Source: Streptomyces spectabilis
GTDB taxonomy: Bacteria > Actinomycetota > Actinomycetes > Streptomycetales > Streptomycetaceae
NCBI RefSeq assembly: GCF_008704795.1
Contig: NZ_CP023690.1
Span: forward strand, 4,474,501 to 4,538,500
Direction of reading: 5' to 3'
Length of the DNA: 64,000 bases
Of this stretch, positions 89 through 14,338 are shown piece by piece (positions within the stretch are counted from its first letter, which is position 1; each line of letters begins with the position of its first letter). The position numbers were made by a program, and so were the translations under genes. Below the pieces are notes generated by a model that saw only the letters and a list, made by a program, of their open reading frames with translations, was not told the DNA's origin and ran no database searches.

Positions 89-127
89 CTGACAGGCCGT
101 CAGTTCAGTAATCTGACTAAGCGTCAG
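89..127. promoter_or_regulatory. Two palindromic operators upstream of acyl-CoA synthetase
   Basis: CTGACAGGCCGTCAG (89-103) and CTGACTAAGCGTCAG (113-127) are two CTGAC-N5-GTCAG palindromes, 24 bp apart, 96 bp before the ATG at 223. The same motif recurs at four other sites in the first 15 kb, always upstream of CoA-catabolism genes, so this is read as a TetR-type repressor operator. The regulator itself is not visible in the window. Bases 1-88 contain nothing I can support. Confidence 0.7.
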
Positions 128-222
128 TTACGAGTCCCGGCACTGTCGCAGCCGCCCGCGGCCCCCGTCCACCGGGGCCCGGCCGGCCCAGTCGTCGCTG
201 TCACACAGGAGCGGGCGTACCG

Positions 223-2448
223 ATGCTTGGATCGACGTACGGCACCTTCACCTCCGACCCCCGCCGCGCACGCGCCGTCGCCTGCGGCAACCTCCCCGCC
301 GCCACCGTCCACGGCCGTGCCGCCACCCCCGGAGACCTGGACGTCAGCGGGCGCCCGCTGTACGCCGACGCCCCCGATCTCGACCGCTTCTTCCGGCCGG
401 AAACCGTCGCCGTCATCGGCGCGTCCGACGCCGAGGGGCGGCCCCACACCGGCATCACCCGCAAGCTCGTCGACTGGGCCGGGCGCGTCGGCGCCCGTCT
501 GTACCCGGTGCACCCCACCCGGCCCGCCGTCTTCGGCATCCCCTGCGCCCGCTCGGTCGCGGACCTGCCGGGCCCCGTCGACGTGGCGGTCGTCCTGGTG
601 CGCGACCCGCTGCCCGTCGTCGAGGAACTCGCCGAGGCCAAGGCGCGCTTCGCGGTCGTCTTCGCCTCCGGCTTCGCCGAGACCGGCGCGGCGGGCGCCG
701 CCGCGCAGGCCCGGCTCGCCGCCGCCGTGAGCCGCTCGGGCCTGCGCCTGCTCGGCCCGAACACCAACCTCAACGCCTTCGAGGAGTTCCGCGAGGACCT
801 CCAAGGCCCCGCCATCGCCCTCATCACCCAGTCCGGCCACCAGGGCCGCCCCCTGTTCACCCTCCAGGAGCTGGGCATCCGCCTCTCCCACTGGGCGCCC
901 ACCGGCAACGAGGCCGATCTGGAGACCGCCGACTTCGTCTCGTACTTCGCCGAGCAGCCGGACGTCGGCGCCATCGCCGCGTACGTGGAGGGCCTCAAGG
1001 ACGGCCGCGCCTTCCTGCTCGCCGCCGACCGGGCCGCCCGGCGCGGCGTCCCGGTCGTCGCCGTCAAGGTCGGCCGCACCGAGACCGGCGCCCGCACGGC
1101 CGCGTCCCACACCGGCAAGCTGACCGGTGCCGACACCGTCGTGGACGCGGCGATGCGGCAGTTCGGCGTGATACGCGTCGACGGGCTCGACGAACTCCAG
1201 GACACCGCGGCCCTGTTGGCCCGTGCCCGGCCGCCCCGCGCGGACGGCGTGGCCGTCTACTCGATCTCCGGCGGCACGGGCGCGCACTTCGCCGACCTCG
1301 CGACGGCTGCGGGCCTCAGTCTGCCGACGCTCGCGGAGCCGAAGCAGACCGAGCTCCACCAGTGGATCCCGCACTATCTGAACGTCTCCAACCCCATCGA
1401 CAACGGCGGCCACCCCGTCGGCGACTGGCGCGGCCGCAAGATCATCGACGCGATCCTGGCCGACCCCGCGATCGGCGTCCTGATCTGCCCCATCACGGGT
1501 CCGTTCCCGCCGATGAGCGACCGCCTCGCCGAGGACCTGGTCGCCGCGGCGGAGGAGACGGACAAGCTGATCTGCGTGGTCTGGGGCTCCCCGGTGGGCA
1601 CGGAGGAGGCCTACCGCTCCACGCTGCTCGGCTCGTCCCGCGTCGCCACCTTCCGCACCTTCGCCAACTGCGTCACGGCCGTGCGCGCGTACGTGGACCA
1701 CCACCGCTTCACCACGGCCTACCGCTCCCCCTTCGACGAGGCGCCGCGCACCGCCTCGCCCTCCTCCCGCAAGGCCGAGGCCCTGATGCGCCCCGGCCAG
1801 CTGCTCAGCGAGCACGCCGGGAAGCAGCTCCTGCGCGCGTACGGCATCCGCGTGCCGCGCGAGCAGCTCGTCACCAGCGCGGCCGGGGCCGTGCGCGCCG
1901 CCGGGCAGGTCGGCTACCCCGTCGTCATGAAGGCCTCCGGCGCGCGCATCGCCCACAAGACCGAACTCGGCCTCGTCCGGATCGGCCTGACCTCCGCGAG
2001 CCAGGTCCGCGACGCCTACCGCGACCTCACCGACATCGCCCGTTACGAGGACATCGACCTGGACGGCGTCCTGGTCTGCCAGATGGTGGAGCGCGGCGTC
2101 GAGATGGTCGTCGGCGTCAGCCAGGACCCGCTGTTCGGCCCCACCGTGACCGTGGGGCTCGGCGGGGTGCTCGTGGAGGTCCTGCACGACACCTCGGTCC
2201 GGGTGCCGCCCTTCGGCGAGGACCAGGCCCGCGCGATGCTCGACGAACTGCGCGGCCGGGCCCTCCTGGACGGCGTGCGCGGGGCACCACCGTCCGACCT
2301 GGACGCCCTCGTCGAGGTCGTCCTGCGGGTCCAGCGGATGGCCCTCGAACTGGAGGGGCAGCTGGCGGAGCTGGACATCAACCCGCTGATGGTCCTCGGC
2401 CGCGGCCAGGGGGCGGTGGCCCTGGACGCCCTCGCGCGCTGCGGGTGA
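223..2448 (+). CDS. Acetate--CoA ligase family protein (ADP-forming acyl-CoA synthetase)
   Basis: A 741-aa one-chain NDP-forming acyl-CoA synthetase: an N-terminal CoA-binding Rossmann domain (around residue 60, VAVIGASDAEG), a succinyl-CoA-ligase-like flavodoxin domain in the middle (conserved SGGTGAHFAD near residue 345) and a C-terminal ATP-grasp domain (about 520-735, with GYPVVMKASG and ELDINPLMV). Family members make acyl-CoA from a free acid, CoA and ATP via a phosphohistidine. The ATG at 223 follows CAGGAG at suitable spacing. Two CTGAC-N5-GTCAG operators lie upstream, linking it to the other acyl-CoA genes of the island. It converges on the GlxA-type regulator with 13 bp between the stops. 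The natural acid cannot be read from the sequence. Confidence 0.9.
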   Translation: MLGSTYGTFTSDPRRARAVACGNLPAATVHGRAATPGDLDVSGRPLYADAPDLDRFFRPETVAVIGASDAEGRPHTGITRKLVDWAGRVGARLYPVHPTRPAVFGIPCARSVADLPGPVDVAVVLVRDPLPVVEELAEAKARFAVVFASGFAETGAAGAAAQARLAAAVSRSGLRLLGPNTNLNAFEEFREDLQGPAIALITQSGHQGRPLFTLQELGIRLSHWAPTGNEADLETADFVSYFAEQPDVGAIAAYVEGLKDGRAFLLAADRAARRGVPVVAVKVGRTETGARTAASHTGKLTGADTVVDAAMRQFGVIRVDGLDELQDTAALLARARPPRADGVAVYSISGGTGAHFADLATAAGLSLPTLAEPKQTELHQWIPHYLNVSNPIDNGGHPVGDWRGRKIIDAILADPAIGVLICPITGPFPPMSDRLAEDLVAAAEETDKLICVVWGSPVGTEEAYRSTLLGSSRVATFRTFANCVTAVRAYVDHHRFTTAYRSPFDEAPRTASPSSRKAEALMRPGQLLSEHAGKQLLRAYGIRVPREQLVTSAAGAVRAAGQVGYPVVMKASGARIAHKTELGLVRIGLTSASQVRDAYRDLTDIARYEDIDLDGVLVCQMVERGVEMVVGVSQDPLFGPTVTVGLGGVLVEVLHDTSVRVPPFGEDQARAMLDELRGRALLDGVRGAPPSDLDALVEVVLRVQRMALELEGQLAELDINPLMVLGRGQGAVALDALARCG

Positions 2449-2461
2449 GCGGGCGCCGGGG

Positions 2462-3484
2462 TCAGCCCTCGTCCGCGTTCCGGAACGTGCGGCGGTAGGC
2501 CGTCGGCGTCACGCCCAGGACCGACTGGAGGTGCTGGCGCATCGACTGGGCCGTGCCGAAGCCGGACTCGCGGGCGACCCGGTCGACGGACAGGCTCGTG
2601 GACTCCAGGAGGTGGCGGGCCCGCTCCACCCGCTGCCGGGTGAGCCACTGGCCGGGGCTGACGCCGACCTCCTCGCGGAAGCGGCGGGTGAAGGTGCGCA
2701 CCGACATCGCCTCCTGCTCGGCCAGGTCGCGCAGCTGGAGCGGCTCGTGGAGGCGGCCGAGCGCCCAGGCCCGCGCGGTGGTCGTCGTCGCCAGCTGCGG
2801 CTCGGGCACCGGGCGCTGGACGTACTGCGCCTGACCGCCGTCGCGGTGCGGCGGTACGACCGTGGAGCGGGCCACCTCGTTGGCGACGGCGGCGCCGTGG
2901 TCGCGGCGCACCACGTGCAGACACAGATCGAGCCCCGCGGCGACCCCGGCGGAGGTGAGCACGTCGCCGTCGTCGATGAACAGCACGTCCGCGTCGACCT
3001 CGATGCGCGGGTGGAGCCGCTGGAAGTGCTCCGCGTGCGCCCAGTGCGTGGTCGCCGGGCGGCCGTCCAGGAGGCCCGCGGCCGCCAGGACGTAGCCGCC
3101 CGTGCAGATCGACACCATGCGGGTGCCGGGACGTACGTGCGCGAGGGCGGCGGCCAGCTCGTCGGTGAGGCGGCCCTCCTCGTACACGGGCCCCAGCTCG
3201 TGCGAGGCGGGCACCACGACCGTGTCGGCCGTGGCGAGCGCCTCGGGCCCGTGCTCCACCACGACGTCGAAGTCGGCGTCGGTGCGGACCGGCCCCGGCG
3301 GCCGCACGGAACAGGTCACGACCTCGTACAGGCGCCGTCCGTCGGCGCTCCGCGCGCGGCCGAAGATGCGCTGGGGAATGCCCAGCTCGAAGGGGATGAC
3401 ACCGTCCATGACGAGAACGGCGACGCGGTGCGGGACCGGTGCCCGCCGCCCCCGCCCGCCCCTGCGCGCCCGCTGCCCGTCCAT
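2462..3484 (-). CDS. GlxA-family transcriptional regulator (DJ-1/PfpI + AraC)
   Basis: A 340-aa regulator with an N-terminal DJ-1/PfpI-like amidotransferase fold (about 18-190; nucleophile-elbow cysteine in SICTGGY) and a C-terminal AraC/XylS double helix-turn-helix (about 235-335; GVSPGQWLTRQRVERARHLLE, then SGFGTAQSMRQHL and GVTPTAYRR). Such proteins are usually activators whose DJ-1 half senses an unknown ligand. The ATG at 3484 is chosen because the basic N-terminal run leads directly into the first beta strand. It is divergent from the MFS transporter with only 71 bp between starts, so it may control that carrier. It has no CTGAC-type operator and looks separate from that regulon. Confidence 0.9.
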   Translation of the reverse strand: MDGQRARRGGRGRRAPVPHRVAVLVMDGVIPFELGIPQRIFGRARSADGRRLYEVVTCSVRPPGPVRTDADFDVVVEHGPEALATADTVVVPASHELGPVYEEGRLTDELAAALAHVRPGTRMVSICTGGYVLAAAGLLDGRPATTHWAHAEHFQRLHPRIEVDADVLFIDDGDVLTSAGVAAGLDLCLHVVRRDHGAAVANEVARSTVVPPHRDGGQAQYVQRPVPEPQLATTTTARAWALGRLHEPLQLRDLAEQEAMSVRTFTRRFREEVGVSPGQWLTRQRVERARHLLESTSLSVDRVARESGFGTAQSMRQHLQSVLGVTPTAYRRTFRNADEG

Positions 3485-3555
3485 GGCCCGATCCTAGCGA
3501 ACGCTGTCCCCCCGGCCACTCGATCGCGCCGGGGCCCGGCCCGATCCTGGCTGAC

Positions 3556-4872
3556 GTGACCCAGACAACCGAGAGCTCCGCACGGCCGGACGGCACCGAG
3601 TCCCCGCGCGGCCGGGGGCGGCGCGCGCCGCGCGTCCACCGCGCCTGGCTCGTCGCGGCCGTCACCTTCGTGACGATCATCGGCGGCGCCGCCTTCAACT
3701 CCCTGCCCGGCCTGCTCATCGACCCCCTGCACGAGGAGTTCGACTGGTCCCGGGGCGAGATCGGCCTCGCGGTCTCCATCGACATGGCGCTCTACGGGCT
3801 CACCGCGCCGTTCGCCGCCGCGCTCATGGACCGCTTCGGCATCCGCAAGGTCGTCGTGAGCGCCCTCGGCCTGGTCGCGGCGGGCGCGCTGCTCAGCGTG
3901 TGGATGACCGCGAGCTGGCAGCTGATGCTCTACTGGGGCCTCCTGGTCGGCCTGGGCACCGGGTCCATGGCGCTCGCCTTCTCCGCCACCGTCACCAACC
4001 GCTGGTTCGTCGAGCGGCGCGGCCTGGTCACCGGCATCCTGACGGCGGCGGGCGCCTCCGGGCAGCTGGTGTTCCTGCCGCTGTGCGCGTGGATCGTGGA
4101 CGAGCACGGGTGGCGGCCCGCGTCCGTGACGGTCGCGCTCGCCGCGCTCGCCGTGGTGCCGTTCGTGTGGCTGCTCCTGCGCGACCACCCCGCCGACGTC
4201 GGACTCGCCCCGTACGGCGGCGCGTTCACACCCAAGCCGGAGCCGACGCGGGGCGCCGCCGCGCGGACCCTGCGGGTGCTGTTCGACGCGGCGCGGACCG
4301 GCCCGTTCTGGCTGCTCGCGGGGACCTTCGCCATCTGCGGGGCGTCCACCAACGGCCTGGTGCGCACGCACTTCGTGCCGTCCGCGCACGACCACGGCAT
4401 GCCCGTCACCGCGGCGGCTTCGCTGCTCGCTGTGATCGGCGTCTTCGACGTCGTGGGCACGATCGCCTCCGGCTGGCTCACGGACCGCTTCGAGGCGCGG
4501 CGGCTGCTCGCCGTCTACTACGCGCTGCGCGGCGTCTCGCTGGTGTTCCTGCCGATCCTCCTCGCGCCCAGCGTGCACGTCCCGATGCTGTTCTTCATCG
4601 TCTTCTACGGGCTCGACTGGGTGGCCACCGTGCCGCCCACGCTCGCCCTGTGCCGGGAGCACTACGGGGCCGACAGCGCGATCGTCTTCGGCTGGGTGCT
4701 CGCCTCGCACCAGGTCGGCGCGGCGCTCGTCGCCTTCCTCGGCGGCGTGGCCCGGGACGTCTTCGGGTCGTACGACGTGGTCTGGTACGCGTCCGGCGGC
4801 CTGTGCGCGGCCGCGGCCCTGATGTCCCTCGTGATCCGGCGCACCGGCCGGGACGCGGAACTCCCGGCGTGA
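3556..4872 (+). CDS. MFS transporter
   Basis: About 438 aa with a cytoplasmic basic N-terminus and twelve probable membrane helices. The first begins near WLVAAVTFVTIIGGAAFN, and the loop after helix 2 carries a major-facilitator signature (MDRFGIRKVVV). The GTG at 3556 gives the polar lead typical of the family; upstream codons in the same frame run back into the divergent regulator and are rejected. The protein resembles monocarboxylate/oxalate-type MFS carriers, and its position in an acyl-CoA island suggests an organic-acid substrate, but this is inference. Its 3' end converges on the flavin reductase gene with 13 bp between. Regulation by the adjacent GlxA-type protein is plausible. Confidence 0.88.
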   Translation: MTQTTESSARPDGTESPRGRGRRAPRVHRAWLVAAVTFVTIIGGAAFNSLPGLLIDPLHEEFDWSRGEIGLAVSIDMALYGLTAPFAAALMDRFGIRKVVVSALGLVAAGALLSVWMTASWQLMLYWGLLVGLGTGSMALAFSATVTNRWFVERRGLVTGILTAAGASGQLVFLPLCAWIVDEHGWRPASVTVALAALAVVPFVWLLLRDHPADVGLAPYGGAFTPKPEPTRGAAARTLRVLFDAARTGPFWLLAGTFAICGASTNGLVRTHFVPSAHDHGMPVTAAASLLAVIGVFDVVGTIASGWLTDRFEARRLLAVYYALRGVSLVFLPILLAPSVHVPMLFFIVFYGLDWVATVPPTLALCREHYGADSAIVFGWVLASHQVGAALVAFLGGVARDVFGSYDVVWYASGGLCAAAALMSLVIRRTGRDAELPA

Positions 4873-4885
4873 GCCCGGGCGGGCC

Positions 4886-5485
4886 TCAGGACAGGCGGCC
4901 GCGGTGGAACAGGAGCGGGGCCGCCTCCCGGTCCGTGGCGTCCAGGGCCTCCACCCGGCCGACCACGATGAGGTGGTCGCCGCCGGTGTGCACCGCGTGC
5001 ACGGTGCAGTCGATCCACGCGGGCGCGCCCGCGAGGCGCGGGGAGCCCGTGACGGGCGCGGCGTCGTAGGAGACCCCCGCGAACTTGTCGGCCCCGCTGA
5101 CCGCGAACGCCCGGCACAGCTCCGCCTGATCCGCACCGAGCACGTTCACGCAGAAGACGCCCGCGCGGGCGATGCGCGGCCACGTCGTGGACGTACGGGC
5201 CACCATGAAGCAGACCAGGGGCGGATCGAGGGAGAGCGAGGAGAACGACTGACAGGCGAACCCCGCGGGGCCGCGGCGGCCTTCGGCCGGGGCCGTCACC
5301 ACGGTGACGCCGGTGGCGAAGGTGCCCAGGACACGGCGGAACTCCGCCGCGTCGAGCGGCGCGCGCTCACCCTCACGGACGGCCCGCAGCCGGGGCCGCG
5401 GCACGGCATCGACCGCCACCGCCGTAGGGGCCCCCACCGACCTGAGGTAGCGCACGACCGTGGCCGCCATTCCCGCGTGTCCCAT
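4886..5485 (-). CDS. Flavin reductase family protein
   Basis: About 199 aa with the flavin-reductase split-barrel fold: FRRVLGTFATGVTVVTA, then SFSSLSLDPPLVCFMVARTS and GVFCVNVL, the pattern of the reductase component of two-component flavin monooxygenases (HsaB/HpaC type), which supplies reduced FMN/FAD. The start is uncertain. ATG 5485 has GGGGGA four bases upstream and is preferred; ATG 5497 is in frame but has no Shine-Dalgarno sequence; ATG 5470 is also possible. A CTGAC-N5-ATCAG operator at 5503-5517 lies directly upstream, placing it in the island's regulon. No partner oxygenase is visible in the window. Confidence 0.85.
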   Translation of the reverse strand: MGHAGMAATVVRYLRSVGAPTAVAVDAVPRPRLRAVREGERAPLDAAEFRRVLGTFATGVTVVTAPAEGRRGPAGFACQSFSSLSLDPPLVCFMVARTSTTWPRIARAGVFCVNVLGADQAELCRAFAVSGADKFAGVSYDAAPVTGSPRLAGAPAWIDCTVHAVHTGGDHLIVVGRVEALDATDREAAPLLFHRGRLS

Positions 5486-5502
5486 CACGTCCCCCATTGA
5501 AG

Positions 5503-5517
5503 CTGACGGCCCATCAG
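5503..5517. promoter_or_regulatory. CTGAC-type operator upstream of flavin reductase
   Basis: CTGACGGCCCATCAG differs from the perfect palindrome by one base in the right arm. It lies 18 bp upstream of the preferred flavin reductase start, so a bound repressor would cover the transcription start. Confidence 0.6.
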
Positions 5518-5534
5518 ATTGGAAGAGGCGGTCC

Positions 5535-5600
5535 CTGGGGGAGCGCCCCCAAAGGGGCGCGGGGAACTGCGCGACCAGCCACGACGAACCCGCAGACGCA
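5535..5600. repeat. Dispersed Streptomyces intergenic repeat with hairpin
   Basis: A GGGGGAGCGCCCCC hairpin is followed by the GGGGCGCGGGGAACTGCGCGA core, which I recognise as a sequence present in many Streptomyces intergenic regions. It lies between the enoyl-CoA hydratase stop and the flavin reductase promoter on the same strand. It may end the upstream operon transcript; function is not known. Confidence 0.5.
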
Positions 5601-5615
5601 CACCCAGCAAAGCGC

Positions 5616-6407
5616 TCAACGCCCCTCAAAGGTGGGGGAACGGCGCTCCAAAAAGCTGGCAACGCCCTCCCGCGCGTCACGGGTACCCATATTGATCTCC
5701 TGGGCGGCAGCCTCCGCGGCCAGCGCGGCGGCACGCCCGGACTCCAAGGACGCGTTGACGAGCTGCTTGGTGAGAGCGAGAGCCCGGGTGGGCCCGGAGG
5801 CAAGGCGCTCCGCCCAGGCGCGGGCGGTCTTCTCCAGGTCGGCGTCCGCCACGACGCGGTTGACGAGGCCGAGCCGCTCCGCGTCGGCGGCGGCGAGCGC
5901 GTCGCCGAAGAACATCAGCTCCTTCGCGCGCTGGGGCCCGACGAGCCGCGGCAGCAGATACGCCCCGCCGCCGTCCGGGACCAGGCCCCTGCGGACGAAC
6001 ACCTCGATGAACGCGGCCGATTCGGCGGCCAGGACCAGATCGCAGGCGAGCGCCAGATGGGCACCGAGCCCCGCGGCGGTGCCGTTCACGGCGGCGATGA
6101 CGGGCTTCTCGCAGTCGAGGACCCCGGTGATCAGCCGCTGCGCCCCCTCGCGCAGCGTGCGGGCGATGTCCCCCGCGACGCGCTCGCCCCCGCCGGAGGC
6201 GCCGCGCAGATCGGCTCCCGCGCAGAAGGCGCCACCGCTACCGGTGATCACGACGGCCCGCGTGGCCGGGTCGCGGGAGGCCTCGTCGAGCAGCCCGACG
6301 AGACGGTCCCGGTCGCCCGGCGCGAGCGCGTTGCGCACATCGGGCCGGTCGAGGGTGATCCAGGTGACGTGGTGGCTGGTGGAGTGGTGGATGCGGGGGT
6401 CGGCCAT
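5616..6407 (-). CDS. Enoyl-CoA hydratase/isomerase family protein
   Basis: A 263-aa crotonase-fold enzyme. The oxyanion-hole segments are GAFCAGADLRG near residue 65 and AAVNGTAAGLGAHLALACD near residue 105. The catalytic loop reads VRRGLVPDGGGAYLLPRLVG, which is PaaG-like: an Asp in PDGGG rather than the two glutamates of classical hydratases, so isomerase activity on a CoA thioester is as likely as hydration. The ATG at 6407 is chosen over one at 6470 because the family starts a few residues before the first strand (VTWITLDRPDVRNAL). It is the last gene of the SDR-ACAD-ADH-ECH operon running down from 9732. Confidence 0.9.
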   Translation of the reverse strand: MADPRIHHSTSHHVTWITLDRPDVRNALAPGDRDRLVGLLDEASRDPATRAVVITGSGGAFCAGADLRGASGGGERVAGDIARTLREGAQRLITGVLDCEKPVIAAVNGTAAGLGAHLALACDLVLAAESAAFIEVFVRRGLVPDGGGAYLLPRLVGPQRAKELMFFGDALAAADAERLGLVNRVVADADLEKTARAWAERLASGPTRALALTKQLVNASLESGRAAALAAEAAAQEINMGTRDAREGVASFLERRSPTFEGR

Positions 6408-6489
6408 GGAGGGGGTCCGCTCTCTGTGAGGGATGGTCGGGCGCGCCGGCTGGGAGGGGGCGGTCCACACCGCCCGGTGAGCGGACGTC

Positions 6490-7539
6490 TCAGAACACCA
6501 TCACCGCCCGTGCCACCCGGCCCGCCTCGGCGTCCGCACGGGCCCGGGCGAAGTCCTCCACCCCGTACGTCCGCGTCACCAGTTCGTCGAGCAGCAGGCG
6601 CCCCGCCAGATACAGCTCCGCGTACAGCGCGAAGTCCCGCTGCGGCCGGGACGACCCGTACCGGCAGCCGAGGATCGACTTGTCCAGGAACAGCGACGAG
6701 ACGACGAACGACGCCTCGGCGGCGGCCGGCGGCATCCCGAGGAGCACCGCCTGCCCGTGCCGGTCCAGGAGGTCGACGGCCTGCCGGGCGAGCTCCACCC
6801 GGCCCACGCACTCGAAGACGTGGTCCGCGCCGGTCGGCAGGGCCTGGGCCACGCCCTCGGCCGACGGCAGGAAGTGCGTGGCGCCGAACTGCCGTGCCAC
6901 CGCCTCCTTGTCCGGGTTCGCGTCGACGGCCACGATCGGCCGCGCCCCCGCGATCCGCGCGCCCTGGAGCACGTTGAGCCCGACGCCCCCGGTGCCGATG
7001 ACGACGACGGAGTCCCCGTACGCGACCTCGGCCCGGTTGAGGACCGCTCCGACGCCGGTGACCACCGCGCACCCGATGAGGGCGGCGGACGCCAGCGGGA
7101 TCTCCTTGGGTATCCGCACGGCCTGCACGGCCTTGACCAGGGTCCGCTCGGCGAAGGAGGAGTTCGCCGCGAACTGGTACAGCGGCGTGCCGCCCCGCGC
7201 GAACGGCCGGTCGGGCATCCCGATCGCCTTGCGGCACATGGTGGGCCGCCCCCGGTGGCACTCGGCGCACGCCCCGCAGTTCGCGATCGTGGACAGGGCC
7301 ACGTGGTCACCGGGCACGACGTGCGTGACGCCGGGCCCCACGGCCTCCACGACGCCCGCGCCCTCGTGCCCGAGCACCACGGGGACCGGGAACGGGATCG
7401 TCCCGTCGAGCACCGACAGATCGCTGTGGCAGAGCCCGGCCGCCGCGACGGCCACCAGGACCTCGCCGGGCCCAGGCTCCCGCACCTCCAGGTCGTCGAC
7501 GACCTCCACGCTCCGCCCGTCGAACACCACGCCCCTCAT
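6490..7539 (-). CDS. Zn-dependent alcohol dehydrogenase (MDR family)
   Basis: A 349-aa medium-chain dehydrogenase. The catalytic zinc site starts at CHSDLSV (near 37) with GHEGAGVVEAVG following; structural-zinc cysteines are in CGACAECHRGRPTMC (about 88-102); the NAD-binding site is GTGGVGLNVLQGARIAGA (near 180). Length and motifs fit class-III-like alcohol dehydrogenases that oxidise hydroxyacyl or primary alcohol intermediates. The start at 7539 lies 10 bp after the acyl-CoA dehydrogenase stop, so it is co-transcribed in the operon starting at 9732. A probable step is oxidation of a hydroxylated side chain to the aldehyde, but substrate assignment is inference. Confidence 0.9.
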   Translation of the reverse strand: MRGVVFDGRSVEVVDDLEVREPGPGEVLVAVAAAGLCHSDLSVLDGTIPFPVPVVLGHEGAGVVEAVGPGVTHVVPGDHVALSTIANCGACAECHRGRPTMCRKAIGMPDRPFARGGTPLYQFAANSSFAERTLVKAVQAVRIPKEIPLASAALIGCAVVTGVGAVLNRAEVAYGDSVVVIGTGGVGLNVLQGARIAGARPIVAVDANPDKEAVARQFGATHFLPSAEGVAQALPTGADHVFECVGRVELARQAVDLLDRHGQAVLLGMPPAAAEASFVVSSLFLDKSILGCRYGSSRPQRDFALYAELYLAGRLLLDELVTRTYGVEDFARARADAEAGRVARAVMVF

Positions 7540-7549
7540 CGCACACCCC

Positions 7550-8755
7550 TCACCGAGGCCCCTCGGCCTCTCTCGGCAGGCCGAGCACCCGCTCGGCGAT
7601 GATGTTCCGCTGGATCTCGTCGGAGCCGCCGTAGATCGTGTCGGCGCGCGAGAAGAGGAAGAGCCGCTGGGCCGCGTCGAGTTCGTAGGGAGCGTCCGCG
7701 GACCAGTCGCCGGGGCCCGCCGCGGCGAGCGCCCCGCGCACCCGCACCGCCAGCTCCCCGAGCCGCTGGTGCCAGCCGCCCCACAGGAGCTTCGCGACGC
7801 TGGGCGCGCCCGGGTCCCCGCCGCCCAGGGTCCGCAGGGCGTTCCACCGCATGACCCGCAACTCACCCCACAGAGCGATGAGTTGGTCCCGCACGACCGG
7901 GTCGCCCGTGGCCCCGCCGCGCACGGCGTCGCGTACGACAGCCGCCAGTTCCGCCGCGAAGCCGATCTGCTGGGCGAGCGTGGACACCCCGCGCTCGAAG
8001 CCGAGCAGCCCCATCGCGACGCGCCACCCCGCGCCCTCGCCGCCGACGACGTGCCCCACGCGCGCGCGTGCCCCGTCGAAGAAGACCTCGTTGAACTCGG
8101 CCGTCCCGGTCAGCTGCCGGATCGGCCGCACCTCGATCCGCCCCGGCTGGTCCATCGGCACGAGCAGGAACGAGAGACCCTCGTGCCGCCGCGCCCCCGC
8201 GCCCCCGGTGCGCGCGAGCACGAAGCACCAGTCGGCCTCGTGCGCGAGCGAGGTCCAGATCTTCTGACCGCTGATCCGGTACGCGTCCCCGTCGCGCTCG
8301 GCGACCGTGCGGACGCCCGCGAGGTCGGAGCCCGCGCCCGGCTCGCTGTACCCCTGGCACCACAGGGTCTCCCCGCGCGCGATGGACGGCAGGAACTCGT
8401 CGCGCTGCTCCTGGTTCCCGTACGCGAGGAGGGTCGGCGCGAGCAGCTTCTCGCCGATGTGGCCACAGCGTCCCGGCGCCCGCACGCGCGCGTACTCCTC
8501 GGCCCACACGACCTGCTGCGTGAGCGAGGCCGTACGGTTGCCGTACGCGCCCGGCGCCGTGTCCCAGCCGATGCCGATCCAGCCGCCGCGCCCCAACTCC
8601 CTTTCCCAGTCCCTGCGCAGGGCCGGGTCCTGGTGCTCGGCCCCGGGCCCGCCGTGCCCCGCGGCCGCCGCGAAGCCGCCGGTCAGATGGCGGTCGAGCC
8701 ACTCCCGCGCCTCGGTGCGGAAGGCCTCGTCCGCGGGCCCGAATGCGAAGTCCAC
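7550..8755 (-). CDS. Acyl-CoA dehydrogenase family protein
   Basis: A 401-aa full-length flavoprotein acyl-CoA dehydrogenase. It has the N-terminal helical domain, WCQGYSEPGAGSDLAG (FAD/substrate loop, about 125-140), the middle beta-domain motif GQKIWTSLAHEADWCFVLART and a C-terminal helical domain ending IYGGSDEIQRNIIAERVLGLP. It introduces alpha,beta unsaturation into an acyl-CoA and passes electrons to ETF. GTG 8755 is used because it follows the SDR stop by 8 bp and yields the normal N-terminus. It resembles the FadE group used on bulky acyl-CoAs in actinobacteria, and is second in the operon after the SDR. Confidence 0.92.
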   Translation of the reverse strand: MDFAFGPADEAFRTEAREWLDRHLTGGFAAAAGHGGPGAEHQDPALRRDWERELGRGGWIGIGWDTAPGAYGNRTASLTQQVVWAEEYARVRAPGRCGHIGEKLLAPTLLAYGNQEQRDEFLPSIARGETLWCQGYSEPGAGSDLAGVRTVAERDGDAYRISGQKIWTSLAHEADWCFVLARTGGAGARRHEGLSFLLVPMDQPGRIEVRPIRQLTGTAEFNEVFFDGARARVGHVVGGEGAGWRVAMGLLGFERGVSTLAQQIGFAAELAAVVRDAVRGGATGDPVVRDQLIALWGELRVMRWNALRTLGGGDPGAPSVAKLLWGGWHQRLGELAVRVRGALAAAGPGDWSADAPYELDAAQRLFLFSRADTIYGGSDEIQRNIIAERVLGLPREAEGPR

Positions 8756-8763
8756 GGCCGGGC

Positions 8764-9732
8764 CTAGGCGGTGGGGCCCGACGGGGACCGGCCGGGCGGG
8801 GCGTCGGGCGGGGCGGTCGGCGCCGCGTTGGGCCTGGCCCCCCGCGCCGCCGCCCGCGCCATCGCCTCCACCCGCTCCAGGAGCGGCATCGGGTCGGTGC
8901 CCACCGCGGTGGGCAGCTGGTCCGCGATCCGCTCCGGCGTCAAGCCGCCGTCGACGTACGCGGCCCGCAGCTCGCGCGGCTGCGCCCACACCGCGATCTT
9001 GGGTCCGGCGACGGTGTACACCTGCCCGGTGATCCGCTCGTCCCGGGCCCGGTCGCTGAGCAGGTACACCACGAGCGCCGCGACGTCCTCCGGCTCGCCG
9101 ATCTCCGTCAGCTCCATGGGGACGTTCGCGGACATCCGGGTGCGCGCCACGGGCGCCACCGCGTTGGCGGTCACGCCGTACTTGTGCAGACCGAGCGCGG
9201 CGCTGCGCACCAGGGAGATGATGCCGCCCTTGGCCGCGCTGTAGTTGGCCTGCGACACGGAGCCCTGGTGGTTGCCGCTGGTGAAGCCGATCAGGGTGCC
9301 GGAGCGCTGTGCGCGCATCACGGCGGACGCGGCCCGGAAGACGGTGAAGGTGCCCTTCAGATGAGTGGCGATGACCGGGTCCCACTCCCGCTCGGTCATG
9401 TTGAACAGCATTCGCTCGCGCAGGATCCCGGCGACGCACACGGCCCCGTCGAGCCGCCCGTACGCCTCCCTGGCCGCGTCGACGACGCGCTGCCCGCCCG
9501 CCATGGTGGAGATGTCGTCGGCGACGGCGACCGCCTCGCCCCCGGCCGCCTCGATCTCCTTGACCACGGCGTCGGCTATCTCGCTCGCGGGCTCACCGCC
9601 CTCGACCGACACCCCGTAGTCATTGACGACGACCTTGGCGCCCTCGGCCGCCGCGGCGAAGGCGACCGCCCTGCCGATGCCGCGCCCGGCGCCCGTCACG
9701 GCGACCACCTTGCCTGCCAAGAAGTTCCCCAC
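8764..9732 (-). CDS. SDR-family 3-hydroxyacyl-CoA dehydrogenase-like oxidoreductase
   Basis: A 322-aa short-chain dehydrogenase: cofactor motif TGAGRGIG (about 14-21), VNDYG after strand 2 as in MFE-2/17beta-HSD4-type enzymes, catalytic Ser in FTSGNHQG and YSAAKGG around residue 170, plus a C-terminal extension rich in Ala/Pro. The VNDYG feature and neighbouring ACADs suggest oxidation of a 3-hydroxyacyl-CoA rather than a free alcohol. GTG 9732 follows GGGAAGGGG. It is the first gene of a four-gene operon; the operator at 9754-9768 lies 22 bp upstream and is shared with the divergent cyclase gene. Confidence 0.9.
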   Translation of the reverse strand: MGNFLAGKVVAVTGAGRGIGRAVAFAAAAEGAKVVVNDYGVSVEGGEPASEIADAVVKEIEAAGGEAVAVADDISTMAGGQRVVDAAREAYGRLDGAVCVAGILRERMLFNMTEREWDPVIATHLKGTFTVFRAASAVMRAQRSGTLIGFTSGNHQGSVSQANYSAAKGGIISLVRSAALGLHKYGVTANAVAPVARTRMSANVPMELTEIGEPEDVAALVVYLLSDRARDERITGQVYTVAGPKIAVWAQPRELRAAYVDGGLTPERIADQLPTAVGTDPMPLLERVEAMARAAARGARPNAAPTAPPDAPPGRSPSGPTA

Positions 9733-9753
9733 ACCGGCCCCTTCCCGCGGTTT

Positions 9754-9768
9754 CTGACGGACCGTTAG
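9754..9768. promoter_or_regulatory. CTGAC-type operator in divergent promoter
   Basis: CTGACGGACCGTTAG lies between the divergent SDR operon (start 9732) and the cyclase gene (start 9816). A further partial copy, TGACCCGTCAG, follows at 9775-9785. A single repressor could shut both promoters. Confidence 0.65.
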
Positions 9769-9815
9769 ATTCTATGACCCGTCAGACACGGTGAGACAAG
9801 CCCCGGGGAGGACCC

Positions 9816-10772
9816 ATGTCGGCTCCGCTGCGCGGACCGGACCTGCCGGCCATGCCGCCCGCGTTCCACGAGCTCGCCGAGCGCGTCAACAACTGGGGCC
9901 GCTGGGGCGCCGACGACGAACTGGGCACCCTGAACCTGATCACCGACGAGGTGGTGCGCGCGGCCGCGGCCACCGTGCGCACGGGCCGCCGCGTCCCGCT
10001 CGCGCTGCCGCTGCGCCACGACGGCGTCCAGGCGGGCCTGATCCCGGGCCGGGTCAACCCGCTGCACACGATGGTCCAGATCAACCAGCGCCTCTTCGGC
10101 CCCGGCACGGTCGCGACCAGCGACGACGCGGTCACCATGGGCCTACAGGCCGCCACCCACTGGGACGCGCTCCCGCACGTCTCGCACTCGGGCCTGCTCT
10201 ACAACGGCCGCCCCGCCGACAGCGTCACGGCCCACGAGGGCGCCCGCTTCAGCGGCATCGAGAAGATCCCGCACGTCGTCTCGCGCGGCGTCCTGCTCGA
10301 CGTGGCGCGCGCCCACGGGCTCGACCGGCTGCCCGGCGATCACGCCGTCACCCCCGAAGACCTGGCCCTCGCCGCGGAGTTCGGCGGCGTCACGGTGCGC
10401 GCCGGGGACGTCGTACTGATCCGCACGGGCCAGGTCCGGCTCTATCTGGCGGGCGACAAGAACGCGTACGCGATGCCGTCCCCCGGGCTCTCCTGCCGCA
10501 CCCCGGAGTGGTTCCACGCGCGGGACGTGGCAGCCGTCGCCAACGACACGCTCACCTTCGAGATCTTCCCGCCGGAGATCGAGAACCTCTGGCTGCCGGT
10601 GCACGCCCTCCACTTGGTGGAGATGGGCATGCTCCAGGGCCAGAACTGGAATCTCGAAGAGTTGTCCACAGCCTGTGGAGAGGAGCGGCGCCACAGCTTC
10701 CTGCTCGTGGCGATGCCCGAGCCGTTCACGGGCGCGACGGGCACCCCGGTGGCACCGGTCGCCGTCTTCTGA
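9816..10772 (+). CDS. Cyclase family protein (kynurenine formamidase-like hydrolase)
   Basis: A 318-aa metal-dependent hydrolase of the cyclase/KynB superfamily. The metal-binding signature usually written HxGTHxDxPxH appears as THWDALPHVSHSG near residue 115, with further conserved GDVVLIRTGQ and the C-terminal HSFLLVAMPEPFTGATG segment. Family members hydrolyse amide or lactone bonds of cyclic acids. The ATG at 9816 follows GGGGAGGA at ideal spacing. It is divergent from the SDR operon and shares the CTGAC-type operator, so it probably supplies or processes the same substrate. The exact reaction is not evident. Confidence 0.88.
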   Translation: MSAPLRGPDLPAMPPAFHELAERVNNWGRWGADDELGTLNLITDEVVRAAAATVRTGRRVPLALPLRHDGVQAGLIPGRVNPLHTMVQINQRLFGPGTVATSDDAVTMGLQAATHWDALPHVSHSGLLYNGRPADSVTAHEGARFSGIEKIPHVVSRGVLLDVARAHGLDRLPGDHAVTPEDLALAAEFGGVTVRAGDVVLIRTGQVRLYLAGDKNAYAMPSPGLSCRTPEWFHARDVAAVANDTLTFEIFPPEIENLWLPVHALHLVEMGMLQGQNWNLEELSTACGEERRHSFLLVAMPEPFTGATGTPVAPVAVF

Positions 10773-11258
10773 CCCCGTACGGAGTTCGGGTGGCGGCGCG
10801 TCGGCGCCCCGCCCCGAGCGCGTGACCGCGCGCCGCCATCCGGCTCCGGCGTACGAGCCCCGCCCCCCTTCTGCCCTGAAGGAGCGCGACGCCGAATCGC
10901 GAACCGCACCTCGCCGAGGACCGGGCCACAGGCGCCACCGTCCCTCGACGTCCCCTCGCGGCGAATCGCTGCACACCAGCGTGATCAGCCGAGTACGGTA
11001 CGTCAACACCCGTCCGGGGATTTATGAACTATGCCGGTTTTGCACCGCACGCGCACGGCCGCGCACCGTGGCACGCGACGGCGCACGCGCCAGCACGCCA
11101 GGGGCACACCAGGCATTCGACGACAAGCGGCGACGGGCACCACCAAGCATTCGACGACAAGCCACGACGGGCACCATCAAGCATTTCTGCGACAAGCCAC
11201 GACGGCCCCATCAAGCCCGTCCGGCGTTTGAGGACAAGGCCGAAGGCCGACAAAACCC
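10773..11258. repeat. Gene-free interval with 34-bp direct repeats and a dispersed repeat
   Basis: No gene is supported in this 486-bp gap. Units beginning GCATTCGACGACAAG start at 11113 and 11147, with a diverged third (GCATTTCTGCGACAAG) at 11181, an exact 34-bp period and no spacers. At 11213-11235 the array runs into the common Streptomyces sequence GCCCGTCCGGCGTTTGAGGA, whose inverse copy is at 63650-63671. The gap separates two genes that converge (cyclase + strand, ATP-binding protein - strand), so a transcription-end role is possible. Confidence 0.6.
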
Positions 11259-11717
11259 TCAGCGCACCCCGAGAGCAACCTCTGAATACCGCGAAGCCGA
11301 AGCGGCAGCGCCCACGCACCGGTCCACCTCGCACCAGATCCGCTTGCCGCCCCCCTCCGGCTGCCACCCCCACCGATCCGCGAGCCCGTCCACGAGTTCG
11401 AGCCCGCGCCCGTTGGTCTCGTCGCCCTCGGCGTGCCGGGGCCGCGGCGGCCGCGCGCAGCGGTCCGCGACCTCGACGCGCACCGTGCCCGGCTCACCGG
11501 TCGGCACACCGGGGAGCAGCATGTGCAGGACGGCCGGACAGCCCGTGTGCACAACGGCGTTGGTGACGAGCTCCGAGATCAGCAGGATGAGCGTCTCGGC
11601 CAGCGGCTCGTCCGCCGCTATGCCGGACCCGGCGAGCCGTGACCGCGCCCATCTGCGGGCCCGGCCCACTTCCGCGGGGTCCGGCTCGACTTCCAGCTGA
11701 ACTTGAAGCACCTGCAC
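11259..11717 (-). CDS. ATP-binding protein (RsbW-like anti-sigma/serine kinase fold)
   Basis: A 152-aa single HATPase_c domain: N-box SELVTNAVVH (about 48-57), a degenerate G1 box VEVADRC, and G2 box GRGLELVDGLADRWGW (about 102-117). This is the small GHKL anti-sigma-factor class that is very abundant in Streptomyces and often phosphorylates STAS anti-anti-sigma proteins. The GTG at 11717 is provisional; GTG 11711 is also possible. No sigma factor or STAS gene is adjacent, although a STAS/sigma cluster lies 5 kb away. No helix-turn-helix or DUF397 partner gene is visible beside it. Confidence 0.85.
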   Translation of the reverse strand: MQVLQVQLEVEPDPAEVGRARRWARSRLAGSGIAADEPLAETLILLISELVTNAVVHTGCPAVLHMLLPGVPTGEPGTVRVEVADRCARPPRPRHAEGDETNGRGLELVDGLADRWGWQPEGGGKRIWCEVDRCVGAAASASRYSEVALGVR

Positions 11718-12221
11718 CGCTCACACCATCCGAACCGGCGGACACAACGCCTCGTGACGCCCCAGGGTCACGGAACGTGAGCCCCTGAGGAGACAGCATG
11801 GTTGACGTACAGTCACCCCAACAAGCGCTTCGGGCATATTCCAGCGCGAAGGAGTACGCGTGCGGCATACTGTGCGACGCGCGCCGCAGGGGGTCGAACA
11901 GGCGGGCGCTCGGCCGCGTCCTGTGCGGCGAGCGGAGCGCGCTACCAGGCACGGAGCTGCCTCGGGGGCAACACCGGCGCGGCTCGGCATCAGGACCACT
12001 CGCATCTCACACAAGGTACCGGAGCCGGACGCCGACTCCGCGTCGCGACGAGTCACGCGTAGGACACAACCCGATATCGACGCTCAGTAGCCTTCGCGCC
12101 GTTCCGAGTTTCTCAAGCCGATCAAGCCGTCCGCCAGCGCTGCGTGACGAAGCGACCCCAACGAGCGAAAGCGGCCCCACGGCGTGGCCCGCGCCCCGGG
12201 ACGCCACGGGCGTCCGTGCCG
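11718..12221. other. Interval without a recognisable gene
   Basis: About 500 bp with lower and more irregular GC than its neighbours. It contains TTGACG-type promoter-like sequence near 11802 and one weakly supported small reading frame (11860-12090). Nothing else is supported. Confidence 0.4.
11860..12090 (+). CDS. Possible small basic protein, doubtful
   Basis: A GTG preceded by AAGGAG at five-base spacing opens a 76-codon frame rich in Arg and Ala (RHTVRRAPQG start, RRTQPDIDAQ end). It sits about 55 bp downstream of a TTGACG element. Third-position GC is modest and I recognise no family, so it could equally be chance. Conservation of the frame in related genomes would decide it. Confidence 0.22.
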   Translation: MRHTVRRAPQGVEQAGARPRPVRRAERATRHGAASGATPARLGIRTTRISHKVPEPDADSASRRVTRRTQPDIDAQ

Positions 12222-13091
12222 TCACAGCGCGGCGGCCAGTTCCTCCTCGGCGCGGGCCGCCGTCGTGCCGAGTCCGGCCCGCACCCAGGCCCGCTTGAGG
12301 TGCAGATGCACGTCCGCCTCCCAGGTGAACCCCATGCCGCCGTGCACCTGCAGGCAGTCGCGGGCGTTGCGCACGGCGGCTTCGTCGGCGAGGAGTTTGG
12401 CCCCGGCCACCTCGCCCGGATCGCCCGTGACGGCGGCCGCGTACACGGCGGCACGGGCGACCTCGGTGCGCACGAGCAGCTCGGCGCAGAGGTGCTTGAC
12501 GGCCTGGAAGGCGCCGATCGGCTGCCCGAACTGCTCGCGCTCGCGGGCGTATTGGACGGCCATGTCGCGGGTGCCGCAGGCGGACCCGAGCTGTTCGGCG
12601 GCCAGCAGCAGCGAAGCCAGGGGCTCCCTCGCGCACGCGCCGGGAACGCGGTGCAGCGGCGTCAGCGGGTCCACGGACCGCAGGGGCGTCGCCCCCGCGG
12701 CGTCCCCCACGACGACGTCGGCCTCGTCGAGCCAGGGCACGAGCGTGCCGTCCACGGCGGTCACGACCGTCTCGCCGGTCGCCGCCCCCTCGACCTCGCC
12801 CGCCGCGAGGAACGTGGCGACCAGCGGCCCGGGCAGCAGCGCCCGCCCGGCCTCCTCGAACACGAGCACCGCCTCCACCGCGCCGAGGCCGAGGCCGCCG
12901 CGCGCCTCCGGAACACGCAGGGCGAAGAACCCGGCGTCACCGACGGCCCGCCACAGCGTCCGGTCGAGGCCGGGCGCGGACACGGCGGCTCGCAGGGCGT
13001 CGCGCCCGAAGCGGCGGGCTAGCAGCGCCCTGAAGCCGTCGCGCAACGCCCGCTGGTCGTCGTCCGGTTGGAGGTCCACGCCGGCCGTCAC
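12222..13091 (-). CDS. Short acyl-CoA dehydrogenase subunit (ChsE1/FadE28-like)
   Basis: Only 289 aa, about 90 shorter than a normal acyl-CoA dehydrogenase. The N-terminal helical domain (RALRDGFRALLARRFG; FEEAGRALLPGP) and C-terminal helical domain (YAREREQFGQPIGAFQAVKH; QVHGGMGFTWEADVHLHLKR) are intact, but the central beta-domain is contracted and lacks the usual WCQG..EP.AGSD loop. GTG 13091 overlaps the upstream ACAD stop in a GTGA junction, so the two are translationally coupled. Actinobacterial ACAD pairs of one complete and one reduced chain form alpha2beta2 enzymes in steroid side-chain catabolism (ChsE1-ChsE2); the same architecture is inferred here. Confidence 0.85.
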   Translation of the reverse strand: MTAGVDLQPDDDQRALRDGFRALLARRFGRDALRAAVSAPGLDRTLWRAVGDAGFFALRVPEARGGLGLGAVEAVLVFEEAGRALLPGPLVATFLAAGEVEGAATGETVVTAVDGTLVPWLDEADVVVGDAAGATPLRSVDPLTPLHRVPGACAREPLASLLLAAEQLGSACGTRDMAVQYAREREQFGQPIGAFQAVKHLCAELLVRTEVARAAVYAAAVTGDPGEVAGAKLLADEAAVRNARDCLQVHGGMGFTWEADVHLHLKRAWVRAGLGTTAARAEEELAAAL

Positions 13092-14221
13092 CGCCCCTTC
13101 GGCAGTCCGAGGATCCGCTCGGCCACGATGTTCCGCTGGATCTGCGAGGTGCCCGCGGCGATGGTGTACGACAGCGAGGAGAGCCGCTCCCGCGCCCAGG
13201 CGTTGCCCAGGTCGAGGCCGCCGTCCCCGAGCACGTCGGCGGCGGCGTCGTACAGCTCCTGACGCGCGTGCGAGTAGCGCAGCTTGAACACCGAACCGCC
13301 CGCCCCGGGCACGCCGCCGGTGCGCTGGGCCTCGCTCACGTTCCGCTGCGTGAGGCGCCACAGGGCCTGGAACTCGGCGCTCAGGCGCCCGAGTCTGCGC
13401 CGCAGCACCGCGTCGTCCCAGCGGCCGTTCGCGCGGGCCTCGCGGGCGAGTTCGCCGAGCACGCGGCGGCAGCCGACCACCTCGCCGACGAAGGCGGTGC
13501 CGCGTTCGAAGGACAGCGTCACCGTGGTCACGCGCCAGCCGTCGTTCTCGGCGCCCACCCTGTTGGCGACGGGCACCGGCACCTCGTCGAGGAAGACCTC
13601 CGCGAACTCCGCGGACCCGGCGAGCGTCCGCAGCGGCCGCACCGTGATCCCCGGCGCGTCCATCGGAAGGGCGAGCCAGCTGAGGCCCCGGTGCCTGGGC
13701 GCCTCCGGGTCGGTCCGCACGAGGAGTTCGCACCAGTCGGCGACCTCGGCGTGCGAGGTCCAGACCTTGGACCCGGTCACCACGTAGTGGTCGCCCTCGC
13801 GCCGCGCGCGCGTGCGCAGCGACGCCAGGTCGGAGCCCGCGTCCGGCTCGCTGAAGCCCTGGCACCAGATCTCGTCGCCGCGCAGGATCGGCTGGAGCCA
13901 GCGCGCCCGCTGCTCGGGGGTGCCCTCGGCGGCGATGGTCGGTCCGGCGTGCAGCAGCCCGACGAAGTTCGCGCCCACGTACGGCGCCCCGGCGCGTTCG
14001 CTCTCCTCCAGGAAGATCATCCGCAGCGTGGGCGAGGCCTCCCAGTGGACGTGCGCGTACCCGGCGTCGTACAGCGCGCGCTGCCAGCCGGAGTCGTACG
14101 CGCGCCGGCCCGGCCAGTCGAGCGGGTCGGGGCGCTCCGGCAGCTTGGGCAGCACCTCCGCGAGCCAGTCGCGCAGGCGGGCGCGGAAGTCCTCTTCCTC
14201 ATCGGTGTACGAGAGGTCCAT
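13088..14221 (-). CDS. Acyl-CoA dehydrogenase, large subunit (ChsE2/FadE29-like)
   Basis: A 377-aa complete acyl-CoA dehydrogenase chain: WCQGFSEPDAGSDLASLRT (about 130-148), GSKVWTSHAEVADWCELLVRTD in the beta-domain, and SYTIAAGTSQIQRNIVAERILGLPKGR at the C-terminus. It starts at ATG 14221 (DLSYTDEEEDFRARL), preferred over ATG 14239 because it gives the usual family N-terminus. It is the promoter-proximal gene of a two-gene operon with the short ACAD, under the operator at 14246-14260, and is divergent from the CoA ligase. The pair probably acts on the CoA ester made by that ligase. Confidence 0.92.
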   Translation of the reverse strand: MDLSYTDEEEDFRARLRDWLAEVLPKLPERPDPLDWPGRRAYDSGWQRALYDAGYAHVHWEASPTLRMIFLEESERAGAPYVGANFVGLLHAGPTIAAEGTPEQRARWLQPILRGDEIWCQGFSEPDAGSDLASLRTRARREGDHYVVTGSKVWTSHAEVADWCELLVRTDPEAPRHRGLSWLALPMDAPGITVRPLRTLAGSAEFAEVFLDEVPVPVANRVGAENDGWRVTTVTLSFERGTAFVGEVVGCRRVLGELAREARANGRWDDAVLRRRLGRLSAEFQALWRLTQRNVSEAQRTGGVPGAGGSVFKLRYSHARQELYDAAADVLGDGGLDLGNAWARERLSSLSYTIAAGTSQIQRNIVAERILGLPKGR

Positions 14222-14245
14222 CGGGAGCACCCGCCTCAACCGTTT

Positions 14246-14260
14246 CTGATGGCCTGTCAG
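14246..14260. promoter_or_regulatory. CTGAC-type operator upstream of ACAD pair
   Basis: CTGATGGCCTGTCAG, 25 bp upstream of the ACAD start at 14221 on the minus strand. Confidence 0.65.
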
Positions 14261-14323
14261 ATGGCAGGCTAGCCCCGCACCCCTGGACCGACAAGGCGTG
14301 GCGCCCTACGCTCTGCGCACGAT

Positions 14324-14338
14324 CTGACGAGCCGTCAG
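14324..14338. promoter_or_regulatory. CTGAC-type operator upstream of CoA ligase
   Basis: CTGACGAGCCGTCAG, a perfect CTGAC-N5-GTCAG palindrome, 53 bp upstream of the CoA ligase GTG at 14391. With 14246-14260 it brackets the divergent promoter region. Confidence 0.7.

Follow-up and report, generated by a model that had tools for sequence, protein, structure and literature searches.

Palindromic CTGAC-N5-GTCAG sites in Streptomyces spectabilis and a TetR-type protein that may control acid catabolism through them

We analysed a stretch of 64,000 nucleotides of Streptomyces spectabilis (the window; positions 4474501-4538500 of the 9.81-Mb chromosome), whose left-hand end carries six palindromes of the form CTGAC-N5-GTCAG. 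A first-pass annotation had reported the palindromes and proposed that they mark an acid-catabolic regulon. We confirmed all six. Two of them, CTGACAGGCCGTCAG (89-103; exact core, 22.6 bits) and CTGACTAAGCGTCAG (113-127; exact core, 27.2 bits), precede the gene of an ADP-forming acyl-CoA synthetase (223-2448, forward strand; Pfam CoA-binding, Succ_CoA_lig and ATP-grasp_5). The bits given for sites are scores with a 21-base matrix built from the sites of relatives. The third, CTGACGGCCCATCAG (5503-5517; one mismatch, 28.5 bits), stands before an HsaB-like flavin reductase gene (4886-5497, reverse strand; PF01613), which scored 192 bits with NF045630 and did not reach the cut-off of 230. Genes for an SDR, an acyl-CoA dehydrogenase, a zinc alcohol dehydrogenase and an enoyl-CoA hydratase occupy 5616-9732 (reverse strand; gene calls and family models), and CTGACGGACCGTTAG (9754-9768; one mismatch, 25.8 bits) lies in the divergent promoter between the SDR and a cyclase-family hydrolase (9816-10772, forward strand; PF04199). 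Further on, CTGATGGCCTGTCAG (14246-14260; one mismatch, 23.6 bits) precedes a two-chain acyl-CoA dehydrogenase (12222-14221, reverse strand; large chain 13088-14221, small chain 12222-13091; assigned from solved relatives) and CTGACGAGCCGTCAG (14324-14338; exact core, 24.5 bits) precedes an AMP-forming CoA ligase (14391-15941, forward strand; gene calls and family models). A gene of an AraC/DJ-1-type regulator (2462-3484) also lies among the target genes. Gene calls, Pfam and family models agreed with the gene names and promoter placement of the first-pass annotation, and its statement that the window holds no other site was correct: bases 15001-64000 contained none with up to one mismatch. 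A weight-matrix match at 36278 was inside a gene.

When the window was simulated 100 times with a first-order Markov model, exact matches numbered 0.13 on average and 1 at most, compared with the three observed. Chance was rejected as the origin of the exact sites. We observed that the palindromes of the window are the right-hand part of a longer array. Allowing one mismatch, we counted 16 sites in 4440501-4538500, all confined to 40 kb (4448522-4488838), so that the array starts 26 kb left of the window. All 16 lie between called genes, while intergenic DNA makes up 18% of the stretch. Ten of them lie left of base 1, at window coordinates -25978 to -1411, and the same part of the array holds a TetR gene. 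The other genes of this left part encode an aldehyde dehydrogenase, two LLM/F420-type oxidoreductases, an SDR, an amidohydrolase, a FadD3-family ligase, an Ltp2-like protein with OB-fold and enoyl-CoA hydratase neighbours, an acyl-CoA dehydrogenase beside an F420H2-dependent quinone reductase-like protein, a second thiolase-like protein, an OB-fold protein and an FMO-like protein. Genes of an AfsR-like (BTAD, NB-ARC, TPR) and an AfsK-like (kinase, PQQ) protein are interleaved with them.

A TetR gene left of base 1 had been predicted from the window alone, and we found it at 4467239-4467886, 7.3 kb to the left (215 codons; window coordinates -7261 to -6614). Its product exceeded the cut-offs of PF00440 and PF19352. 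The gene was single-copy in all 61 genomes of the genus sampled, with 64-93% identity in the 60 others, and the helix TSPATFYQYF was exact in 57 of 58 TetR loci. One site of the array, at 4467231, overlaps the start codon of this gene (CTGACGGCATGACAG). We compared the 52 Streptomyces TetR loci by reading upstream of the 51 with an exact recognition helix, leaving out L058, where the helix is not exact. A start-codon site of the form CTGACG[G/A/T]CATGACAG was present in 50 of the 51; at L082 there was no site upstream of TetR with up to one mismatch. The right half of the site falls within codons 1-3 and dictates ACA as the Thr codon, a rare choice in genes of such high GC content. The array thus has a trait of TetR regulons, namely that the palindrome is found both in the targets and in the regulator's own promoter (16 sites, one at the start codon). 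A kinase gene with PQQ repeats lies near the TetR gene in S. spectabilis, and an AfsK-like gene lies near it in all nine other Streptomyces laid out, with a VOC gene between them in eight. The TetR gene stands beside an AfsK-like gene in G043, G010, G037 and G047 (L161-L166, L169, L170), four genomes without the cluster. On the basis of this synteny with afsK, we take the TetR protein to be the ortholog of SCO4421 of S. coelicolor, which lies near afsK (SCO4423) according to passages of PMC3878966.

The core is flanked by A and T. In sets of sites from S. spectabilis, other Streptomyces, Actinomadura and the family f14, position -2 was A in 50-79% of the sites and position -1 was T in 37-83%; four sites of the family f16 showed the flanks weakly. 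Because of these flanks, we predict that the operator has an extended form, about ATCTGACGGnCCGTCAGAT. The bare exact core occurred 45 times in the genome, compared with 3 for the reversed pattern. This control is too lenient in our view, as core counts often exceed the reversed ones in genomes without the TetR gene too. There were 38 exact cores outside the cluster. We inspected 35 of these: 18 were intergenic and flanked on one side by a gene start, 16 were intragenic and 1 lay between convergent gene ends. The 21-base matrix was trained on 47 sites from three other Streptomyces and two Actinomadura, with none from S. spectabilis itself, and was used to scan 466.7 kb of S. spectabilis loci, chosen for holding or adjoining core matches. 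At 20 bits or more it found 29 sites (14 in the cluster, 15 outside), with 28 upstream of genes, 1 away from any gene start and 0 intragenic. Scatter over unrelated promoters, which the first-pass annotation had named as the finding that would speak against a regulon, is half true of the bare core. Ten of the 15 strong outside sites, in nine promoters, precede the same kinds of enzyme as in the cluster: an amidohydrolase (two sites), a MaoC+ChsH2-type protein, two LLM proteins, a MaoC protein, a lipid-transfer thiolase, a ligase/hydratase pair, an SDR, and a short protein without a Pfam match that resembles an OB-fold/zinc-ribbon protein. The other five precede no gene of these kinds.

We laid out five cluster-bearing Streptomyces (G013, G036, G055, G049 and G040) to see the sites in their context. 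The synthetase promoter carried a site in all five and a site pair in four. In all five, the flavin reductase gene follows the synthetase and hydratase genes, in an orientation opposite to that in S. spectabilis, and its site was present in four (absent in G055). Since the gene was relocated and the site was kept, the site appears to have moved with the gene. In all four relatives covered, the gap between the SDR and cyclase genes contained CTGACGGnCCGTTAG, which has the same odd half. One or two sites were present in the gap between the dehydrogenase and the ligase in the four relatives covered there; a second amidohydrolase gene lies beside them in three, and G036 has no ligase at this place. 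The arms of the conserved sites were constant, and the middle bases varied between species. Across the genus, the 43 of 61 genomes with the amidohydrolase had a median of 39 cores (range 26-64), and the 18 without it had a median of 22 (range 5-64; P = 9e-5).

The pairing of regulator and site was also found outside the genus. A TetR match at E 1e-20 or better was present in 47 of 246 genomes of the class, comprising 24 of 24 of the genus and 23 others. In two Actinomadura loci (L131 and L132), CTGACGGTATGCCAG overlaps the start codon of the TetR ortholog, which is followed by two sites, an ADP-forming acyl-CoA synthetase, two further sites and an amidohydrolase. The synthetase is 64-65% identical to that of the window, the amidohydrolase 62% identical to its counterpart, and the TetR protein 43-44% identical to the f13 query and 52-55% identical to the S. 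spectabilis protein over the aligned part. Further on there is a gene that by eye looks CaiB-type and is itself preceded by sites. In family f14, genomes with the TetR gene contained 21, 21, 24, 21 and 10 cores and those without it 6, 3 and 1 (P = 0.018, kinship ignored). In family f16, six genomes with a close ortholog contained 17, 21, 24, 16, 31 and 38 cores and thirteen without it 0-16 (P = 0.0004, kinship within the family ignored); four genomes with a distant TetR match contained 15, 11, 11 and 9. In the f14 genome G073 we inspected eight of the 21 sites, and six of the eight stand before genes that by eye encode an enoyl-CoA hydratase, an aldehyde dehydrogenase, an LLM protein, a ligase, a hydrolase or an acyl-CoA dehydrogenase. 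A TetR relative with the helix ASPATFYQYF (about 6400-7000) was also seen in the Acidimicrobiales bin L134, with an exact core at 5433-5447, approximately 1 kb away.

Further, we compared the target enzymes with known families. The FadD3-family ligase of the left part scored 782 bits with NF005801 (cut-off 657). The Ltp2-like protein gave 320 bits to 6ok1, presumably Ltp2, and the OB_ChsH2_C and zf-ChsH2 domains occur among the targets; by these resemblances, the families of the Ltp2-type aldolase and of its OB-fold partner in steroid side-chain degradation both seem to be represented. The large chain of the two-chain dehydrogenase had 4x28 chain A as its best solved relative (E 3e-47) and the small chain 6wy8 chain A (E 2e-22); the closest solved enzymes are 4x28, which we take to be FadE26-FadE27, and the pair Tcur3483/3481, presumably of Thermomonospora. 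The ligase together with the Ltp2-like and ChsH2-type parts indicates acids of steroid or isoprenoid type, and we would put it at about even odds that steroid-like acids are the substrate class. Cyclohexanecarboxylate, a candidate of the first-pass annotation, is disfavoured by the scores with the family models of its ligase and dehydrogenase, which are far below the cut-offs (TIGR03208, 320 versus 792 bits; TIGR03207, at most 88 versus 575). One motif does join units that are not contiguous, as that annotation had claimed. Instead of the single linear acid pathway that it drew from this, however, the genes could equally well serve several related routes, given that several CoA-activating enzymes, two amidohydrolases, several LLM/F420-type oxidoreductases and Ltp2/ChsH2-type parts are among the targets. 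Elsewhere in the genome, the gene of CYP125 (513 bits to 5dqn) and that of a steroid 3-ketoacyl-CoA thiolase (above the cut-off of NF005889) have a common promoter region. We downgraded this pair, CYP125/FadA5, as a firm target, the site between the two genes being weak.

The regulon itself is almost certainly real, and we are confident that the TetR protein of the array is its regulator. The fuller reading, that these sites are TetR operators controlling acid catabolism over a broad substrate class, is probably correct. From where the sites lie, how they are conserved, how they pair with the regulator gene in a different gene order, and which enzyme families follow them, we infer the following mechanism. 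A TetR dimer would occupy the palindrome (about ATCTGACGGnCCGTCAGAT) in each promoter and at its own start codon, and would block transcription there. Acids resembling steroids or isoprenoids would be activated by enzymes of the regulon to CoA esters, and a CoA thioester made in this way probably releases TetR. Acyl-CoA dehydrogenases would then oxidise the esters, hydration would follow, and enzymes of the Ltp2/OB-fold aldolase type and the thiolase type could cleave the hydrated products, while F420-type and flavin oxidoreductases might act elsewhere on the molecule.

The window has 6 sites with up to one mismatch, and the simulations gave a mean of 2.96 and a maximum of 6; the six-site count by itself does not reject chance and is unconvincing. 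With two mismatches, there were 19 sites in the window, fewer than the 38.65 in shuffles. The force of the evidence is in the placement and conservation of the sites, not in their number. Several observations weigh against the reading of the sites as TetR operators. The start-codon site of TetR is weak with the 21-base matrix (below 13 bits). Four Streptomyces (G043, G010, G037 and G047) keep TetR without nearly all of the catabolic genes, which means either that TetR has another use or that its link with the cluster is looser. An FMO-like gene remains in all four of them, and MFS, AraC and PNPOx-type genes remain in G010; we read the start-codon site of three of them (G043, G010, G047). No clear target set was found at the exact cores of G043 (5), G010 (5 of 9 inspected) and G280 (5). 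Core counts reached 64 among the 18 genomes without the amidohydrolase, and G071, G078 and G086 have a TetR match with only 7, 5 and 6 core copies. The steroid link is one of family resemblance: the dehydrogenases, ligase and flavin reductase of the window fall below the cut-offs of named families, and the core-like site at 3143202 between the CYP125/FadA5 genes reaches only 14.6 bits. In family f13, finally, the core is present in hundreds of copies, mostly outside promoters.

Five f13 genomes of 4.3-5.5 Mb (G072, G090, G104, G117 and G130; loci L095-L116 in part, L117, L119 and L123-L128) contained 232-473 exact copies, compared with 2-7 of the reversed control. In G072 the copies are spread over the whole listed part of the chromosome. 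The 33 listed, which include two places counted twice because of overlapping loci, were 14 intragenic, 12 at gene ends and 7 intergenic. All five genomes have a TetR match, and the helix TSPATFYQYF is kept in G072 and G130, the two inspected. The copies have no A and T flanks. This lack of flanks, together with the placement inside genes and at gene ends, led us to set aside the abundance in f13 as support for TetR; perhaps the same recognition sequence is used genome-wide there.

Among other explanations, the one that survives best accepts that TetR controls these genes and supposes that they serve several unrelated acids, or the cell's own isoprenoid or lipid turnover in development, and not one steroid-like route. 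We consider this a serious possibility, though somewhat short of an even chance. Passages of PMC3878966 describe SCO4421 as raised in development, with activity in spore chains and a lower level in a whiA mutant, and as a gene of unclear function whose deletion gave no phenotype, which fits a developmental role. The multiple CoA-activating enzymes and oxidoreductase types among the targets and the five strong outside sites that precede no gene of the cluster's kinds fit it as well. The Ltp2-like protein (320 bits), the ChsH2-type OB-fold and the FadD3-family ligase above its cut-off argue, however, for chains of steroid or isoprenoid type.

It is rather improbable that the regulon is real and that another protein reads its sites, either a different TetR or the AraC/DJ-1-type regulator at 2462-3484, with the TetR of the array as a bystander. 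TetR is kept where the catabolic genes were lost, and the AraC-type gene sits among the targets. Another TetR of S. coelicolor, Sco4385, lies beside CoA ligase and hydratase genes and has a 23-bp consensus, the letters of which are not in the passages of PMC12093943, hence it is not comparable with ours. The start-codon site, the adjacency in Actinomadura and the co-distribution in f14 and f16 all speak against a bystander. As for the AraC-type gene, it is not directly preceded by a site, and neither Actinomadura locus has a gene that matches it.

We give very little weight to membership of the sites in the sterol regulon of KstR or KstR2, although the enzyme classes overlap and the genome has both a KstR2 gene, within a cluster of IpdABC/EchA20-type genes, and a KstR-like gene. 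Near the genes of the KstR2 cluster there were no CTGAC sites even with one mismatch allowed, and beyond the general fold the TetR of the array is unrelated to KstR and KstR2. Least credible of all is that the palindromes are structural or terminator-like elements, since, despite cores at convergent gene ends in some genomes and their great abundance in f13, the S. spectabilis sites precede gene starts, have A and T flanks that the f13 copies do not have, and keep their promoter positions across species.

If the array TetR does control acid catabolism, a regulator found in 61 of 61 sampled Streptomyces genomes gains a candidate operator, a set of promoters and a function that can be tested. 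Such a regulon, if widespread, would also bear on sterol use in the genus. According to passages of PMC13170338, Streptomyces take up yeast sterols and cyp125A13 is raised in co-culture, while pathways of steroid catabolism were said to be absent in 55 of 57 Streptomyces genomes (passages of PMC4810484). A bolder proposal, which we hold doubtful and offer as speculation, is that the SCO4421-type TetR is, beside KstR and KstR2 and distinct from both, a third, unrecognised master regulator of the assimilation of steroid-like acids in actinomycetes. It would govern an F420-rich route opened by the ADP-forming acyl-CoA synthetase. In Streptomyces it would be wired to sporulation and would shut the use of foreign sterols or polycyclic acids (for example from fungal prey) at spore formation, and in f13 its recognition sequence would by now have become a genome-wide element.

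SCO4421 shares with the TetR described here its place near an AfsK-type kinase gene. The SCO4421 passages in PMC3878966 name no operator, regulon or function, and the array supplies a candidate operator; no other paper of the literature searched named SCO4421. The operator CTGAC-N5-GTCAG was found in none of the titles and abstract openings of the literature searched, in which subscription journals are mostly outside. Mycobacterial TetR motifs are shown as logos, not letters, in passages of PMC4482099. MftR is a TetR that answers to long-chain acyl-CoA, and its operator differs (passages of PMC8728441). By sequence, the solved protein nearest to the array TetR is EthR (E 6e-6, residues 15-77). 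A fold model of the Actinomadura ortholog, of modest quality, had a TetR fold, nearest to EthR and FadR-type structures at approximately 14-24% identity (mean predicted local distance difference test score, pLDDT, 73.7; three sequences). A viral collection gave two distant TetR matches and nothing closer.

The KstR2/HIP regulon (steroid C/D rings) is similar in that a TetR repressor stands over genes of FadD3, acyl-CoA dehydrogenase, hydratase and thiolase; the inducer of KstR2 is a CoA ester. It differs in having another TetR and another operator (those of KstR and KstR2 are palindromes different from CTGAC-N5-GTCAG) and in having its own cluster elsewhere in the S. spectabilis genome. This cluster, at 7.75 Mb (7750274-7763620; L188, L189), contains KstR2 (4w1u, E 8e-57), IpdA, IpdB-, IpdC- and EchA20-like genes, and thiolase-like genes. 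It is unusual here if most Streptomyces are without steroid pathways. Near its genes (7.750-7.763 Mb) we found no CTGAC site at one mismatch or fewer, and the sole one in the 60 kb examined was at 7777162. We rejected KstR2 as the regulator of the array, because the genome's KstR2 is another gene, its cluster has no sites and the array TetR is nearest to EthR. In family f14, the TetR gene adjoins a hydratase above the cut-off of NF005925, presumably EchA20-type, an IpdA-type gene (61% identical to the IpdA at 7.75 Mb; E 5e-93 to 6co6, which we take to be IpdA) and genes read as IpdB and IpdC. The name IpdA for 6co6 fits passages of PMC5380842. We located this arrangement of TetR beside IpdA/IpdB/IpdC/EchA20-type genes at L118 (2947-7862) and, by eye, at L120 (1374-6242). 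The neighbourhood carries one-mismatch sites, and TetR stands as if it had replaced KstR2 there.

The KstR regulon (sterol side chain, A/B rings) overlaps in part with the array through CYP125-, FadA5-, Ltp2- and ChsH2-type functions. It differs in the class of its TetR, and the CYP125/FadA5 site is weak here. The best KstR-like gene of S. spectabilis, at 3.13 Mb, scored 203 bits (cut-off 280) and is distinct from the array TetR. We observed around it a second steroid-like locus (3107102-3144567; L019, L142, L143) with MaoC, SDR, alcohol dehydrogenase, lipid-transfer thiolase, LLM, KstR-like TetR, steroid thiolase and CYP125 genes. As S. spectabilis already possesses a KstR2 cluster and, elsewhere, a gene of KstR-like type, the array looks, judging by its gene families, like a third TetR-controlled, steroid-like catabolic system beside those of KstR and KstR2.

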